DNA of 64,000 nucleotides from a bacterium (GTDB taxonomy: Bacteria; Patescibacteriota; Gracilibacteria; Absconditabacterales; Absconditicoccaceae), in the NCBI GenBank assembly GCA_020627925.1, contig JAHDFY010000001.1:189297-253296 (forward strand), given 5' to 3'. Position 1 is the stretch's first letter. The number at the start of each line of letters is the position of its first letter. The position numbers were made by a program, and so were the translations under genes. Of this stretch, positions 22,375 to 59,336 are shown in pieces. The notes below the pieces were generated by a model. That model saw nothing but the letters and a program-made list of their open reading frames with translations. It made no database searches and was not told where the DNA came from.

Positions 22375-22448
22375 GCGAGCATGATGTAATTGGTGTAGCA
22401 TAGCAGACTTCAGCTCTGCTCGTACGGGTTCGAGTCCCGTTGCTCGCT
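22375..22448 (+). tRNA. tRNA-Gly (TCA), decoder of UGA
   Basis: Cloverleaf: acceptor GCGAGCA/TGCTCGC, D-stem ATGT/GCAT, anticodon stem AGCAGA/TCTGCT with loop CTTCAGC (anticodon TCA), and T-arm ACGGG-TTCGAGT-CCCGT. The first pairs G1-C72, C2-G71, G3-C70 and discriminator T73 are glycine identity elements for bacterial GlyRS and unlike tRNA-Trp or tRNA-Sec. This tRNA explains UGA as glycine across the window, as described for SR1 bacteria. It has its own promoter. Confidence 0.95.
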
Positions 22449-29408: not shown

Positions 29409-29822
29409 ATGACAAGATATCATTACGCTGTAGGTAGAAGAAAATCTTCTACTGCTACGGTAAAACTATTTCCTGGTGGAAAAGGTAAAATTACTGTTAA
29501 AGCTAACGGTAAAGAACTATCATTACTAGACTTCTTCGGAGGGCGCAAATACCTTATTGATGATGTATATTCACCTTTCAACGTACTTGGAAAAGACGTA
29601 GCAAAAAAATATGATGCTGAATTGACAGTATCTGGAGGAGGTGTTGCAGGACAAGCTGGAGCAATTAGATTGGCATTCGCAAGAGCGCTAACTGAAATTT
29701 CTCCGGAAGCAAGACTTACGTTAAAACCTCATGGTCTTCTGAAAAGAGATCAAAGAATCAAGGAAAGAAAAAAGCCTTGATTGAGAAAAGCGAGAAAAAG
29801 ACCAACATGGTCAAAGAGATAA
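29409..29822 (+). CDS. rpsI: Ribosomal protein uS9
   Basis: 137 residues. YHYAVGRRKSSTATVKLFPG, TVSGGGVAGQAGAIRLAFAR and RDQRIKERKKPGLRKARKR, with the Gly of KKPGLRKARK coded by UGA; this tail reaches the ribosomal P site. AUG 29409 matches the family start. A terminator follows. Confidence 0.96.
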
Positions 29823-34571: not shown

Positions 34572-37500
34572 TTATTGTTTCACGACTTTGAAGTTTTGTG
34601 TTTGACTGGTAGTTGCTACGCGAATAATGTACGCGCCACTTGCCAATTCTCTCATATCAATACTATTGCTTTCAGTCTTTTGACGTAATAAACGTCCGTT
34701 GATTGAAAATAGCTGATAAGAAATTTTCCCTTGTTCTTTTGTTTCAATGTATATCCAATCAGAAGTAGGATTGGGATACATGGTAATACTATTTTCGTTC
34801 GCTTGTGTATTTACACCAGTAATTACAGCAATATCATGTAAGGTCACCTCGACTGTCTGTATACAACCATTACTATCGGCAATCGTTGCAGTATAGGTTC
34901 CTGGTAATAGGTTTGTCATGATCATTCCTGTATCACCTGTTGACCAAGTGATATTATAAGGGTCAACTCCCCCTGAGGGTATGAGTGTCACCCAACCGTT
35001 TCCTGCGTGATTCGCTGTTGAATCATGAGCAGATGAAGAGATAATATACCTTAGACTGTCAGGTTCAGTAATATAGACACTATCTATGTTAATACATCCT
35101 AGGATGTCTTCAACAGTAACGCTATAACTACCATTGCTTAAACCTGTCGCAGTAGCATTTGTTGCGCCATTACTCCAAGCATAAGTGTAACTTCCGTTTT
35201 GTCCAGATACAATGATCGTTGATGAGCCTCCACCTTGTCCAGCACAACCACTATAGTGGTTACTAAGCGTTGTATTGTACGGTTGTGGTTCATCTAGTAC
35301 AACAGTGTCTATGACAAAACAACTGTTTGTATCTGTTGTTGTAACGGTGTATGTTCCTGCAACAAGATTTGTAATTGTTGACCCTTGGCCAACATTCCAT
35401 ACGTAGTTATATTGTCCAGTTCCACCGTTGGCCAAAATAGTAATAAACCCATTACTATCTGCATGACACAATGGTGAACTGCTTTGTAAAGAGGTAGTGA
35501 TCATTGTTGCATTGTGCACAATGACGCTGTCCACATCGATACATCCATTATTATCGGTTGTAGTGACGGTATATGTTCCAGCACTAAGACCAGACATACT
35601 ATTTGTTGATCCTGCATGAGACCAAGCGAATGCATAAGGAGCTGTTCCTCCTGTAGTACTTATGCTTACACTTCCTGTACTATCATTGTGGCATAAAGTA
35701 GGAGTGCTTTGTAAAGAACTAACTATCGGAGACGGCTCTGTCAGGGTAATCATATGAGAAGCACTATAGCAGTGCTTTTCATCGTAGGCATAGACCGAGT
35801 AGGATCCACTGCCACCACTGATGCTATCTATATTCCCAACACTACTAATATTCCAAACATAGGTTAATGCTCCTGTTCCACCAGTAGCATTCATTTTGAT
35901 GCTACCATTTCCACCATGACATTGTATAGTGGTCAAGCTAGGCGATAGAATCAAGCTGTCAGGTTCTGTCATGATAATGGAATCAAGTCTTCCGACACAT
36001 CCATTATGATCAATAACTGTCACCCCAATGGTTGAGTCAGGGGCTAAGTTGTACATTAGCCAACCGTTAGGAAAGCTACTGTTGAAATTGAAAGGTCCCG
36101 CTGAAGCATTTCCTCCGTCCCATGACCAATAAATATTACCACCTATTGGACTTGTTAGATTCCCAATATTAATTTCTACTGTCCCATCATTGCTGCCTTT
36201 ACAGCTACTAGGAGTAATGGCAACAAGATTAACAGGTATAATATGCAGAGAGTCCTCAACAATTACACTATCTCGATAAACACATCCATTAGAATGGGCC
36301 TCAAAATAATATTTTCCAGGTGTAACATTATTGATAACACCATGATTGGCGCTACCATAATAATTACCTATTGAATCATACCAAAATAGATTAAAACCTG
36401 TTTGGTTGGTATGGTTGTTGATTAATGCCCCTGTAGCAGAACCACAGTAAGCATGGTTGCTTCCCAATGATATGGTAGGAGTTGGATAGCTTTGTATTTG
36501 CACACTATCCAATTGTGTACACCCATTACCATCCGTAAGCGTTACTGTATATCTTCCAGAAGCCAAAGCTGTTATTTGACTTTGTGTTTCTCCTGTAGAC
36601 CATAAGTATGAAAGCGAACCATTGGTGCCATATATCCATGCTCTACCGGTATTAGCATTGTCACAACTACGCTCTGTATTGATATTGTAGTGTGCCGCTG
36701 AGTATTCAGCGATATTAATACTGTCTATGTCACTACATCCGTTATTATCGGTTGTAGTGACGGTATACGTTCCAGCACTAAGGCCAGAAATAGTGCTTGT
36801 AGAATCACCATGCGACCAAGCAAAGGTATAAGGAGCCGTTCCCCCTGTGCTACTGATGCTTGCCGTTCCATTGCTGTCTCCTATGCAAACTATGCTTCCA
36901 TTTTGCATAGTAGTTATTGGAGTTGGAAAAGAGTCAATTACTAGGGTATCATGAAGTAGACATCCCATCGAATCTGTTCCTGTAAGTAAATAATGGCCAA
37001 ATCCAGTGACACTTATAGAATCACCTATCATGATGCCATTTTGTGGAGTCTCCCACAAAAAGCTTTGAGCTCGTAGTATACTATTGGCTTGCAAGTTGAT
37101 ACTACTGTTGCGACAAGCAATACTATCACTTGTCATCATCACAATGCTGTCTTTTGCATAGCTGTTGATCGTAATAGTGTCGCTGTTGACACATCCCTGG
37201 TTGCTAGAAACAAGTATGAAGTCTCCTGTTTCGCTTTGTAATTGAGGTGTTTTTCCCAAGAATGTATCAGAAGGTGTCACCCAATAATTATTCCCTCCCA
37301 TTGCAACAACATTAGGAATTATTATTGTTTCGGGACACTGAAACGTGTTTCTTCCAGGCGATTGTATTTCTACCACAGGTTTGTGGTGGGTATGAATCAA
37401 ATGATTATTTGTTCCAACACATCCAAATGTATCAGATACAAATACGCTTATTCCTCCACTCCAAGAAGGATTCGTGGTTGCAAATAAGATCGAATCACTA

Positions 37501-38951
37501 TTTGCGTTGTTGCTCCAGGATATCGTGTATGGAGGCATAGCTCCTACTGTTGTCCAAAGAGCTATCGTATCACCAACACAACGGTGGGCTGAACCATGTA
37601 TTTGTACTGTTGGATTACTGCTTGTAACGGTATCGCTACTTGTTGCAGTACATCCCATTGCATCAGTTACAGTGACAATAATTGCACTCGCTAGGTTCGT
37701 AATTGTATGTGACCTATTGTAGGGACTATTGCTCCATGAATAATCATAGGAACCAAGACCACCAGTAACGATCGCATCAATTCGTTCATTCTCTCCAGGA
37801 CAAACGTGCCCATCAGTAGAGGAAAGAGAAACTTGTATATCATTTTGTTGCAACGTAAAATTGCGAACAAATTGACATCCTTTTGCATCACTAACAGTGA
37901 CAGAATGAGTTCCTACAGGAACTACTGCATAGTTAGCCCCCAATGATCCACCAGACAAATCAGCACTCCATTGATAATTGTAAGGAGCCGTTCCATTGAC
38001 TGCTTCAGCTCTTACTGTATCAACAGTTTGACACGTGATTGTGTCATGAATGATGATGTCATTAATACAACATGGATTTGTAGCCAAGTTTGTTGTAATG
38101 GTTACACTACCACAAGTGTATTGTCTGTTGAAATAAATTGGCTGCAAAACCGACGGACTTGCAAACAATATTGAGTCTATGCTTCCTGCAAAGAGGAAGA
38201 TGTTATTAAATGATTCAAAAATACTTGAATCATCAGAGTTAATGTGGCTATTACCAGCCATTCTAATAGTGCAATGACTACTGCTGTTTACGGTGACATG
38301 AGCGCCACTTTCAGCATTAATAACACAAAAGGCGCAATTAATTAGTCGCAATTTTCCACCATTTTTCACGTAAATGGTGTCAAAAGCGCTATTAGATATA
38401 TTTACCTCTGAACCATTCATCGCTAGATAGCGATTATGGCTTCCACCATTGAGATTGCCAATTGCACCACTATCCACAACTATACTAGTCCACGTGGGAT
38501 TAGTAACAGAGTTGCTGTGAATAATGCCACTGCAAGCATGAATGTTGCCGCCATGCGTTATGTTATAAATACCTGTAGTCACTAAGTGACTACTGATATC
38601 TAAGTGAGCATTGATGCTGCATTCGGATAAACAGCCAGTGTTGCACACTTGTACTGTGTCTAAAAGAACCCCAGTAGAAGTGTTGATCCATCCAACATAG
38701 CTGACACAAGTGTCGTTCGCTACGATTTGCGGAAAGGTAGTTATTTTTGTCATACTACCTGATACATTAAGCGTGTAGATCGAATCTAGGCTTGCGCCTG
38801 ATGTTGTGTCTAGGCCAAAACTGACCTCATCATATCCATCACAGATATGTTGATTGTTCTGTGTCTGGTTGACGATCAGGGATTGACCTATCCCTTGTTG
38901 TTGCCACACTATACAGATGAGTAGCAATAGGTACTTAATTGTTTGTTTCAT
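34572..38951 (-). CDS. SprB-repeat protein with type IX secretion (T9SS) C-terminal sorting domain, 1,459 aa
   Basis: The signal peptide (1-22, ends GIGQ) is followed by a region with a beta-helix look (about 90-290), then at least ten SprB-type repeats of about 75-90 residues with the pattern GGTAPYTFAWS...GLSAGTYTVTTTDNNGC. The last 75 residues have MYPNPTSDWIYIETK and GRLLRQK...LASGAYIIRV, the classic T9SS type A signal of Bacteroidota. Two repeats are near-identical even at DNA level (around 35510-35700 and 36690-36870). There is no UGA codon among 1,459 although Gly is common, unlike native genes. T9SS needs an outer membrane, which this lineage lacks by general knowledge, so the gene is very likely imported and its secretion route is unclear. 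Confidence 0.9.
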   Translation of the reverse strand: MKQTIKYLLLLICIVWQQQGIGQSLIVNQTQNNQHICDGYDEVSFGLDTTSGASLDSIYTLNVSGSMTKITTFPQIVANDTCVSYVGWINTSTGVLLDTVQVCNTGCLSECSINAHLDISSHLVTTGIYNITHGGNIHACSGIIHSNSVTNPTWTSIVVDSGAIGNLNGGSHNRYLAMNGSEVNISNSAFDTIYVKNGGKLRLINCAFCVINAESGAHVTVNSSSHCTIRMAGNSHINSDDSSIFESFNNIFLFAGSIDSILFASPSVLQPIYFNRQYTCGSVTITTNLATNPCCINDIIIHDTITCQTVDTVRAEAVNGTAPYNYQWSADLSGGSLGANYAVVPVGTHSVTVSDAKGCQFVRNFTLQQNDIQVSLSSTDGHVCPGENERIDAIVTGGLGSYDYSWSNSPYNRSHTITNLASAIIVTVTDAMGCTATSSDTVTSSNPTVQIHGSAHRCVGDTIALWTTVGAMPPYTISWSNNANSDSILFATTNPSWSGGISVFVSDTFGCVGTNNHLIHTHHKPVVEIQSPGRNTFQCPETIIIPNVVAMGGNNYWVTPSDTFLGKTPQLQSETGDFILVSSNQGCVNSDTITINSYAKDSIVMMTSDSIACRNSSINLQANSILRAQSFLWETPQNGIMIGDSISVTGFGHYLLTGTDSMGCLLHDTLVIDSFPTPITTMQNGSIVCIGDSNGTASISSTGGTAPYTFAWSHGDSTSTISGLSAGTYTVTTTDNNGCSDIDSINIAEYSAAHYNINTERSCDNANTGRAWIYGTNGSLSYLWSTGETQSQITALASGRYTVTLTDGNGCTQLDSVQIQSYPTPTISLGSNHAYCGSATGALINNHTNQTGFNLFWYDSIGNYYGSANHGVINNVTPGKYYFEAHSNGCVYRDSVIVEDSLHIIPVNLVAITPSSCKGSNDGTVEINIGNLTSPIGGNIYWSWDGGNASAGPFNFNSSFPNGWLMYNLAPDSTIGVTVIDHNGCVGRLDSIIMTEPDSLILSPSLTTIQCHGGNGSIKMNATGGTGALTYVWNISSVGNIDSISGGSGSYSVYAYDEKHCYSASHMITLTEPSPIVSSLQSTPTLCHNDSTGSVSISTTGGTAPYAFAWSHAGSTNSMSGLSAGTYTVTTTDNNGCIDVDSVIVHNATMITTSLQSSSPLCHADSNGFITILANGGTGQYNYVWNVGQGSTITNLVAGTYTVTTTDTNSCFVIDTVVLDEPQPYNTTLSNHYSGCAGQGGGSSTIIVSGQNGSYTYAWSNGATNATATGLSNGSYSVTVEDILGCINIDSVYITEPDSLRYIISSSAHDSTANHAGNGWVTLIPSGGVDPYNITWSTGDTGMIMTNLLPGTYTATIADSNGCIQTVEVTLHDIAVITGVNTQANENSITMYPNPTSDWIYIETKEQGKISYQLFSINGRLLRQKTESNSIDMRELASGAYIIRVATTSQTQNFKVVKQ

Positions 38952-39189
38952 TTTTTTTTGTTACTTTAGTTTTTATTAACAAATAGTTTATAATGCTCCT
39001 GTATATCACAAGAGTAAAATTTAGTGTAGTAAATATGAGTCATTATACAAGAAGAAAATGAAATATGTATATATGTCAATAGAGATGTTATATTGTTGTA
39101 TATTTTTTACTGTCTATTGACTTCTTGTTTTATTTTTATAAAAGAAAAAATGTAAATTTTTCGCCAAATAAAATTAAAACAAAATAATC

Positions 39190-40116
39190 ATGCTAAAAGA
39201 AAATCCACGTAAAGAAAAAATAATTTTCACAAAAAACAACATTGTTTTCTTGTTCTTGTGTTTCACTCTATTTGCCTTAGTGATACAAAACAGAACACAA
39301 GGCTTTATTTCAATAAATTCTTCCATAAGAACATTTGTTATAAAAATAGAAAGAATGACAAAACAAGATTATTATTCTACTCAAGGCTACAAAGTATTTG
39401 ATCCAAATCAGAGGCCTATAGATAAAGAATTGTACGAATTAATAGAACCTCCAAATAGTTTTGATACAACAATAGAAAAGATACAAAAGGGGCTGCCCGT
39501 GTATATTGATCAAGAATTTGTTGATGAATTGGAGCGTCTATGTATGTTAGATCCTGACAATAATACATATTATTGCAATCTATTAGACGAAATTAGAAAA
39601 TTATTTCCTGAGGTATTCACTGAGTGGGATAATACTTTGTCTATAAAAAAATTATCAATGAATTTGCAAGACCATATTATAAGGGTATGGGGTCTATCTC
39701 CCCTTTATTCCTATGCAATGCTTGCAGCTCTTGAATCAGAGTATTTAGGGGATAATGACAAAGAGTTGCAAGTACTTTTTGAGAAAGAAGGGCTCCTCTT
39801 TGAAGACAGAAAAAAAATTCAAAAAAACTTCAAAAATTGGCTTAATATGAATTACAAGGAAATGATGCGAGAAGCAATAGAGTATCTATTTTCAGAGGGA
39901 TGGAAACATAGTTTATTAAGCTTGCTATCGCTAGAAGATGTTGATACAGCAAATACAAAAAAAAGCTATGATTCTTTGATTCAGAACACAGACTATGAAA
40001 ATGTTCGTGTTAAGCAGCTATTCCGTATCATGATGGCTGCACTAGGTGATTCAGAAGAATATGATCTCATGGTTTGCTACATCAATCATATGCTTACAGA
40101 AGGCGTCAGAAAATGA
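39190..40116 (+). CDS. Membrane-anchored hypothetical protein, 308 aa, probably ending at a true UGA stop
   Basis: One N-terminal membrane helix (IVFLFLCFTLFALVIQ) and a long soluble acidic part with several Trp and paired acidic stretches (LERLCMLDPDNNTYYC). No UGA inside 308 codons. The frame reaches UGA at 40114-40116, and 7 bp later a perfect 11-bp terminator hairpin begins. If UGA is glycine the frame continues 29 codons to UAA 40201-40203, through the terminator itself. The natural end is therefore UGA, which fits transfer from a standard-code donor. No family recognised. Confidence 0.7.
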   Translation: MLKENPRKEKIIFTKNNIVFLFLCFTLFALVIQNRTQGFISINSSIRTFVIKIERMTKQDYYSTQGYKVFDPNQRPIDKELYELIEPPNSFDTTIEKIQKGLPVYIDQEFVDELERLCMLDPDNNTYYCNLLDEIRKLFPEVFTEWDNTLSIKKLSMNLQDHIIRVWGLSPLYSYAMLAALESEYLGDNDKELQVLFEKEGLLFEDRKKIQKNFKNWLNMNYKEMMREAIEYLFSEGWKHSLLSLLSLEDVDTANTKKSYDSLIQNTDYENVRVKQLFRIMMAALGDSEEYDLMVCYINHMLTEGVRK

Positions 40117-40123
40117 AGAAAAG

Positions 40124-40157
40124 AAGAGTTGCGGTACCTCCGTAACTCTTTTTGTTT
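40124..40157 (+). terminator. Terminator right after the UGA of the 308-aa gene
   Basis: Stem AAGAGTTGCGG / CCGTAACTCTT (one G-T pair) followed by TTTTTGTTTTTTT. Confidence 0.88.
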
Positions 40158-40271
40158 TTTTGCGCTGTTGTTACATGTTAACAACACTATACAAAAAAAA
40201 TAATTGAAAAATATGTCAAGTGTTGATATGATACTTACGTAAACAAAACTGTTAATAAAATTATAACTACA

Positions 40272-41075
40272 ATGAAAAATTTATCATTATTTCTGTTGTT
40301 TTTCTCTTATTGTGTTGTTGTTAATGCGCAGGATAGTATAAAACAATATCCATTTGTGTTTCAATTTAATCTTATTAATCAAACAGGAGCGCACGCACCT
40401 CGTATTGCTGCTCAAGTAGGAAAAACATCAAGTCATGTGATTGAAGTGGATTTTGTTCTTCGTCATAAAAAAGGAACGTTTGCTTCTATTTTTGTGTCAA
40501 AATGCTTGTCGCAAATAACAAATCCTACAATACACAATCCTTTCGCGGATTACCTAATGTTCACAGTGGGACATACAATAAAACACAAAAAATTTGTATT
40601 TGTTCCCAATCTTGCTTATCTTGCTCCAGGAGGATCACAGTATGTTAATTTTGCAGTAGAAAAAGGCTTATTTATTGCAAGCGTACACAATCGTTACCTC
40701 ATTAATCAGCAGATGTCTGTTGGTATCTGGTATAATCATTTTATGTTGGTCAATGATGTCGCTGACACTCATGCACCGATGCTGAGAGTAGATTGGACTT
40801 GGCAACCAACGAGTAAAACAAAAAAACTTGGTACAATAGTGTTACTCGCTTCTTTTGCAGGTGGATACAATAATACGGATCCAAGCATAAATCTTGGTGT
40901 CCAGTATACATCTCCCTTTGTGCCTTTTGGTAAAAAGAGTTTGCTTTCATTAGCAGCTTTTGGCTATGGTTACCAGGATATTTGGAGAGCTGGATCTAAA
41001 ACATTTACTGCCAATATTTTTGGAGGAGGTGTTATTATTTCGATAAAAACGCCCCAGCAAAAAATTGTTAACTAA
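40272..41075 (+). CDS. Secreted beta-rich, outer-membrane-protein-like, 267 aa
   Basis: Signal peptide (1-20, ends VVNAQ) then alternating hydrophobic/polar strands with Gly/Tyr-rich turns (TIVLLASFAGGYNNTDPSIN, LAAFGYGYQDIWRAG, NIFGGGVIISI), which resembles small outer-membrane beta barrels of Bacteroidota. No UGA codon. A membrane barrel makes little sense in a monoderm CPR cell, so import from Bacteroidota is likely. It is 11 bp upstream of the Fis-like gene and may form an operon with it. Confidence 0.6.
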   Translation: MKNLSLFLLFFSYCVVVNAQDSIKQYPFVFQFNLINQTGAHAPRIAAQVGKTSSHVIEVDFVLRHKKGTFASIFVSKCLSQITNPTIHNPFADYLMFTVGHTIKHKKFVFVPNLAYLAPGGSQYVNFAVEKGLFIASVHNRYLINQQMSVGIWYNHFMLVNDVADTHAPMLRVDWTWQPTSKTKKLGTIVLLASFAGGYNNTDPSINLGVQYTSPFVPFGKKSLLSLAAFGYGYQDIWRAGSKTFTANIFGGGVIISIKTPQQKIVN

Positions 41076-57812: not shown

Positions 57813-59336
57813 CTAGTATGCTTTTGCAAAGAGAACTCTTTGGGTGCTTGGTTTATTCGTTACGATACATTTTCATTCCGCTGTTTGCCCTTCCAAATAG
57901 TTATCAAAAGGGATACATCTGATTGTTGCTTTTGTCTCTTCTTTGATTTTTAGCTCTGTTTCAACCGTTCCATCCCAATGAGCCATCACAAAACCATGTT
58001 CGATCTTTTCTTTAAAATCATCATAATTATCTACAAAATATGTGTGTTCTTTTCTATGTTCGAGGTTTTTCTTATGGAGATTTTTTTGTATGTCTTCCAA
58101 TGTGTTAACAAGGTACTGAGTCAGTTTTCTTGCAGGAACAATTTCTTTGGTTTGCGTATCTCTTCTATATACCTCAAACTCTCCGTTTTCCATATCTCTT
58201 TTCCCTAATCCAATTCTCAACGGTACTCCTTTAAGTTCATATTCGTTGTATTTCCATCCTGGTGATTTTTGATCATCTGTATCAATTTGGATATTGATTG
58301 GTAACTCGATATCTCCCAAGAAAGCACTAGAAATTTTGATACTTTCACGGTCTAGCTCACTCAGGAAAGGAGCAAGGTATTCTTCGATAGCAGTCAGATC
58401 TTCTTCTTTTTTGAAAATAGGAACAATAGCAACATGAACAGGTGCAATAGCTGGTGGTAAGACCAGTCCTTTATCATCACTATGAGACAGAATTAATCCC
58501 CCCATCATACGAGTTGACGCACCCCATGAAGTTGCCCAAACATGTTCTTTTTTGTTCTCTTTATTGGTAAACGTAACATCAAAAGCTTTGGCAAAATTTT
58601 GCCCCAAAAAGTGTGATGTACAAATTTGTAATGCTTTTTTGTCTTGCATCATTGGCTCAATAGTGAAAGTATTTTCGGCCCCAGCAAATCTTTCATTTTC
58701 ACTTTTCTCTCCCATGACACCGTCAATAGCCAAGAAATTTTGGAAAAGATCTTGATAGACTGCATGCATCAATTGCGCTTCCTCAATAGCCTCTTCTGCT
58801 GTTGAATGAGCAGTATGACCTTCTTGCCACAAAAACTCAGCAGTTCTCAAAAACATTCTTGTTCTCAATTCCCATCTTACAACATTTGCTCGTTGATTGA
58901 TCAATAATGGCAAGTCACGATGCGAATTAATCCAATTTTTGTATTGGCTCCAAATAATAGTTTCTGAAGTAGGACGAACAATCAATTCCTCTTCCAATTT
59001 TGCTTCAGGATCAACATCGATTGTTCCATTTTCTGCCTTAAGTCTGTAGTGAGTAACTACCGCACATTCCGTAGCAAACCCTTCGACATGCTTTGCTTCT
59101 TTAGAGAAAAAAGACTTGGGAATAAAAAGGGGAAAATACGCATTTTGGTGCCCGGTCGCCTTGAACATACTATCAAGTGTTTCCTTGATGTTTTCCCAAA
59201 TTGCAAAACCATAAGGCTTGATTACCATTGACCCTCTCACGGCACTTGTCTCTGCAAGACCAGCTTCCACCACGAGTCTGTTGTACCATTCACTAAAATT
59301 ATCTTCACGAGTTGGAAATGTTGTTTTTGCCATCAA
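57813..59336 (-). CDS. proS: Prolyl-tRNA synthetase (ProS type 3, archaeal/eukaryote-like)
   Basis: 507 residues. Class II motifs: motif 1 [15 protein letters not shown], motif 2 [20 protein letters not shown], motif 3 [19 protein letters not shown], and an anticodon-binding domain. One UGA (57873-57875) lies where the conserved tail [21 protein letters not shown] needs a Gly; with UGA as stop the enzyme would lose its C-terminal domain. This is a clean test of the code. A hairpin lies in the leader. Confidence 0.96.

Follow-up and report, generated by a model that had tools for sequence, protein, structure and literature searches.

The UGA codon at 40114..40116 on the forward strand of the window (the whole 64,000-nucleotide stretch of DNA that was analysed) was read as the original stop codon of a gene of standard-code format, one of a scattered class of UGA-free genes in a genome where UGA is glycine. 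A probability of about 0.78 was given to this reading. In this format a gene with an A-rich leader has a UGA-free body and a UGA stop with a terminator right behind it, and its neighbours are of Bacteroidota type; such genes are scattered singly among ordinary genes that use UGA as glycine, in this bacterium and its relatives. Membership of the focal gene in the class is inferred from these features, and its stop was likely inherited from a standard-code source. The persistence of a UGA-free class is a larger surprise than the focal stop.

The focal gene and its surroundings

The body of the focal gene (39190..40113, forward strand) was found to contain 308 codons with nine GGN and no UGA. Under the standard code, the open reading frame at 39190-40116 encodes 308 aa without an earlier in-frame UGA, as the first-pass annotation had described. 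Under code 25 the frame extends to the UAA at 40201-40203 and encodes 337 aa, and the extension (40117..40203, forward strand; 28 codons after the UGA, then the UAA) was found to run through and past a predicted intrinsic terminator, which agrees with the earlier claim that a glycine reading passes through the hairpin. The hairpin (40121..40153, forward strand) was identified by folding and stem inspection. It contained 14 unbroken pairs between the arms 40121-40134 and 40140-40153 and a 5-nt loop, followed by a U-tract to about 40161, and the GC-containing stem-loop and U-tract of an intrinsic terminator were thus both present. The gap between the UGA and the hairpin was 4 nt, and the hairpin preceded the UAA at 40201. 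The fold of 40100-40215 had an energy of -33.2 kcal/mol (z = -4.9), and 0 of 200 shuffles were as stable. The terminator claimed earlier was therefore retained, and only the word "perfect" was dropped, as two of the 14 pairs are G.U. Taken alone, the absence of UGA beside nine GGN (p = 0.05) and an open extension of at least 28 codons (p = 0.21) are each weak.

The focal protein was predicted to contain a single N-terminal hydrophobic helix. No usable homologue was found among the relatives, in genome, viral, phage and plasmid collections, in PDB, Pfam and PHROGs, or in 395+50 Bacteroidota genomes. A SepL/TyeA match (NCBIfam) covered 47 residues far below the cut-off and was disregarded, and a single-sequence structure (mean pLDDT 46) was too poor for fold use.

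The gene at 34572..38951 on the reverse strand encodes a 1459-aa SprB-repeat protein with a T9SS C-terminal sorting domain (PF18962, E = 7e-14) and was found to contain 139 GGN and no UGA codons, preceded by an A-rich leader. Related SprB repeats were retained from 80 loci, all of them in Bacteroidota. On the other side, the gene at 40272..41075 on the forward strand encodes a 267-aa protein with an N-terminal signal-like segment ending in NAQD, and contained 19 GGN and no UGA codons. The protein looked outer-membrane-barrel-like by eye, and no relatives of it were found. UGA was used normally in the genes on both sides of this block, which lies within a 393-kb contig. The SprA model of the T9SS machinery gave no match in the focal genome, nor in the control genomes, and the literature search found no paper pairing type IX secretion with Gracilibacteria. 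A further UGA-free gene of the same genome (G000 C6:67770-73322, L076; 1850 codons, 164 GGN) was found to adjoin a T9SS-tail gene and to contain an AQ-type signal peptide and an A-rich leader.

UGA as a glycine codon

UGA made up 27.7% of the glycine codons in 850 kb of the focal genome (722 long ORFs). A tRNA with a UCA anticodon, which reads UGA, was found at 22375..22448 on the forward strand; it was called tRNA-SeC by ARAGORN and is the expected code-25 glycine tRNA. No RF2 was found in the genome, which is about 96% complete (prfB model over its cut-off, 0/1), and the sole match of the prfB model was prfA (RF1), above cut-off and with three in-frame UGA codons. A tmRNA was present on the same contig as the focal gene. 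Within the same family, the UGA share of glycine codons was found to range from about 0.16 to 0.85 (G005, G009, G026, G014, G034 and others).

The UGA share of glycine was even along genes until the last 10 codons, where it rose to 0.37 (about 0.27 elsewhere in this genome), a rise that comes in part mechanically from ATGA gene overlaps. In ribosomal protein S9, the UGA at 29778..29780 (forward strand), 14 codons before the stop, aligned with a glycine of the B. subtilis protein, and the conserved tail was found to go on beyond it. In prolyl-tRNA synthetase (ProRS), the UGA at 57873..57875 (reverse strand), 20 codons before the stop, aligned with a glycine of a solved homologue and was followed by the conserved C-terminus FAKAY. 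A late UGA in a single-UGA gene was tried as a mark of a stop and rejected, the codons being mostly ordinary glycines (S9, ProRS, L1, GrpE). Since RF2 was not found, the UCA tRNA was present and both alignments placed UGA at glycine, UGA is read as glycine in this genome, gene ends included. The glycine assignment of the first-pass annotation was thereby confirmed, and its suggestion of residual UGA termination was not supported: such termination in the resident cell is unlikely.

The class of genes without UGA

Gene calls in the genome counts were longest open frames, uncurated. Among 173 terminator-like hairpins in the 850 kb, 102 were within 300 nt behind a stop, mostly at 0-10 nt, and 22 were inside a same-strand ORF. 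Only two lay in a same-strand gene within 30 codons of its end, namely in the focal gene and in a PnuC-like gene (C3:60674-61486, reverse strand) whose sole UGA has the terminator directly behind it, inside the ORF. Both genes contained exactly one UGA, 3-4 nt ahead of the hairpin. With a looser hairpin definition over 1.12 Mb, four hairpins were found in the last 60 codons of genes, and the other two were not closely behind a UGA. The chance of a UGA within three codons ahead of a hairpin was 0.05, so two such cases are unlikely to be a product of chance. A 123-codon ORF in a relative (G005 67211-67582, L084:7211-7582), where UGA is 70% of glycine codons, was found to contain a single UGA, 13 nt ahead of a terminator; it is a possible third case, and no homologue of it was found.

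A four-gene operon of the focal genome (G000 C3:142593-146646, L050:2593-6646), encoding PPDK-like, NUDIX-methyltransferase, glycosyltransferase and deacetylase-like proteins, was found to contain only two UGA codons vs 70 GGN, and both were ATGA overlaps with the next start. It thus looks like a standard-code operon inside a code-25 genome. ATGA overlaps with a late UGA were counted in UGA-free genes only, because they occur in UGA-rich native genes too. A further UGA stop was found in a UGA-poor gene at C8:9238-9666.

The T9SS tail, found in about 31 genomes of the same family, marks the expected protein end. The 56 T9SS-tail genes from related code-25 genomes contained 2533 GGN vs 14 UGA codons upstream; 52 ended in UAA or UAG and four (7%) in a UGA placed precisely where the domain ends. 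In three of these four (L210, L236, L242) a strong terminator lay before the next UAA or UAG, which is the layout of the focal gene. The share of UGA stops did not differ from that of Bacteroidota loci of similar GC (12/128; Fisher p = 0.78). UGA-using genes were found to flank 19 of 20 T9SS stretches in relatives, with the T9SS-type genes standing singly or in threes. One contig of a relative (G510:C55, L274) was almost without UGA and is probably either Bacteroidota DNA placed in the wrong bin or a long island of foreign origin.

Leaders were taken as the 25 nt ahead of the start codon, in the focal genome and its relatives. The UGA-free genes contained A-rich leaders, with A at -6 in 71% and at -13 in 64%, and native genes contained U-rich leaders; Shine-Dalgarno sequences were absent from both types. 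The leader of the focal gene (39165..39189, forward strand) was A-rich, without a Shine-Dalgarno sequence, and scored 0.48 vs a native mean of -0.12. In the focal genome, genes whose leader scored 0.4 or more contained 6.4% UGA among glycine codons vs 27-32% in the other bins. When the leader class was defined without using UGA, 13 of its 22 genes were UGA-free vs 22 of 625 elsewhere (p = 1e-12). The Bacteroidota loci examined showed the same A-rich trend, more weakly. Adenines at -3 and -6 act in E. coli too, so the A-rich leader is suggestive and not specific. In Flavobacterium, adenines at -3, -6, -12 and -13 are positive determinants (PMC6847099). Upstream of the UGA-free genes (L258-L295), a recurrent sigma70-like promoter, TTGACTTT-N16-TATAnT, was found; the TTGACT promoter was present in 18 of 55 UGA-free genes vs about 28 of 500 native genes, and the Bacteroidota promoter motif in 0 of the 55.

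Syntenic T9SS islands with conserved flanks, 25-71% identical, were found in different species and genera, and none had a UGA-using orthologue. They comprised three loci: the first in L262, L268, L270, L275, L278, L279, L280, L281, L289 and L293, the second in L265, L267 and L288, and the third in L283, L284 and L285. At aligned glycine-glycine positions of the island genes, UGA was present in 0 of 2249 pairs, with the third base differing in 64% of the aligned GGN pairs; in the flanking genes, UGA was present in 1784 of 4149 aligned glycine pairs (43%). Across 21 genomes, the GC3 of UGA-free genes was found to track the resident genome (r = 0.74, with a low-UGA selection that is partly circular). 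Because of this circularity, the argument is carried by the sets defined by domain (T9SS tail) and by leader. With glycine left out, the codon usage of UGA-free genes was not separable from that of native genes.

The absence of UGA in 2249 pairs, the diverged synteny and the resident-like GC3 together mean that a single recent transfer cannot explain the class. Too short a residence for UGA to have arisen does not account for the syntenic islands unless these were repeatedly refilled. Either selection excludes UGA from the class, or its loci have been refilled again and again by genes from standard-code cells.

Competing explanations and known systems

It is possible, though doubtful, that the UGA-free genes are native, with very strong expression by resident ribosomes, that UGA is avoided in them as the slow or inaccurate glycine codon, and that the few UGA-ended members, the focal gene among them, are recent arrivals. 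This is in part compatible with an original stop at 40114, and it accounts for the class and not for the focal stop. In this genome, where UGA is 27% of glycine codons, highly expressed native genes do avoid UGA (EF-Tu 0/38, GroEL 4/49, the S-layer-like protein at C5:168182 0/84), and both the sigma70-type promoters of the UGA-free genes and their resident-like GC3 fit such an origin. However, the native highly expressed genes carry U-rich and not A-rich leaders, and UGA stops ahead of terminators are unexpected in genes tuned to resident translation. In the UGA-rich genome G005, moreover, EF-Tu (12 UGA/20 GGN), L2 (17/13) and the S-layer-like protein (11/79) use UGA, yet the T9SS-tail genes of G014 and G034, where UGA is 70-85% of glycine codons, contained UGA in 0 of 318 cases; expression level alone is therefore a poor reason, on a comparison that takes EF-Tu from one genome and the T9SS genes from two others.

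The other alternatives concern the focal codon and the assembly. An ordinary glycine at 40114, with a real 337-aa protein and a hairpin that is no working terminator, would agree with the established use of UGA and with the ease of an extension of this length arising at random, but it is improbable given the hairpin and U-tract at the usual spacing behind a stop and the identical layout in three T9SS-tail genes whose protein ends are known by homology. That UGA still terminates in some contexts in this cell is very improbable: several genes do carry UGA at stop positions, but the prfB search gave RF1 only, the UGA fraction was flat outside the last 10 codons, and in S9 and ProRS the conserved tails follow UGAs that align with glycine. 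That the block is contaminating or misassembled DNA from Bacteroidota is hardly credible. The UGA-free T9SS-type genes and the wholly foreign look of G510:C55 would suit it, but UGA-using genes lie on either side of the focal block inside its long contig, the same flanking in 19 of 20 T9SS loci of relatives includes the single-contig genomes G026 and G009, and the islands are syntenic across species.

Resident ribosomes, having no factor that reads UGA as stop, should insert glycine at 40114 and read on. The mRNAs ended at the U-tract would lack a stop codon in frame; ribosomes are expected to stall where such an mRNA ends and to be released by tmRNA, and the product is predicted to be tagged for degradation. 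The 337-aa protein would come only from transcripts that pass the terminator, and a clean 308-aa product would require a standard-code ribosome. Against the preferred reading stand the native-like codon usage apart from glycine, the modest p = 0.05 of the nine GGN, and the missing homologue, which leaves no donor gene with the same stop for comparison. The first-pass annotation had proposed a fossil stop from a standard-code donor; a standard-code source is upheld by the position, terminator, leader, neighbours and UGA-ended T9SS-tail genes, and a recent donor is not proven, as the focal gene has no homologue and the class that it resembles is long resident yet UGA-free.

It was also considered that these Bacteroidota-type genes for secreted proteins are kept readable in the standard code because the gene or its message is to be translated in a Bacteroidota partner, which we regard as a long shot. 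If this were so, UGA would be barred from gene bodies and free as a stop, and the focal UGA and terminator would form a normal gene end. T9SS tails are known to be processed in Bacteroidota cells. No transfer step is known, and transcription in such a cell is made less likely by the sigma70-like promoters, so this possibility needs RNA export.

The cost of gene transfer over a genetic-code border has been argued mostly from engineered E. coli, and the gene ends described here are natural ones, clean when read in one code but non-stop when read in the other. An explanation is needed for a family that keeps a conserved class UGA-free while neighbouring genes use UGA for 16-85% of glycines, and the class is relevant to the interaction of these bacteria, which are predicted to depend on hosts, with Bacteroidota. 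As in the Bacteroidota T9SS cargo, the gene at 34572-38951 and the related loci contain cargo domains (PF18962; SprB, PF13573); unlike that cargo, they belong to genomes in which UGA is glycine, and their promoters are sigma70-like and not of the Bacteroidota type.

Code-11-compatible phages predicted to infect Gracilibacteria and Absconditabacteria (PMC10746230) likewise contain UGA-free frames and occasional UGA stops in a host where UGA is glycine. In those phages other stops lie close behind the UGA, giving a viable product in either code, whereas the focal gene has no such backup UAA or UAG, as its next stop comes 29 codons later, past the terminator. The UGA-free genes here also differ in being chromosomal and scattered singly. 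In recoded E. coli, recoding acts as a barrier to gene transfer, with tmRNA rescue at the unassigned stop (PMC6207430), and in Vampirococcus UGA read-through was proposed as a shield against foreign genes (PMC8080830). The focal gene resembles both, as a foreign gene would end at a codon that its host does not use as a stop and tmRNA rescue is expected. In recoded E. coli, however, the codon is unassigned and ribosomes stall at it, whereas the focal UGA is a sense codon; here the terminator is predicted to cause the defect by producing a non-stop mRNA, and the example is a natural chromosomal one.
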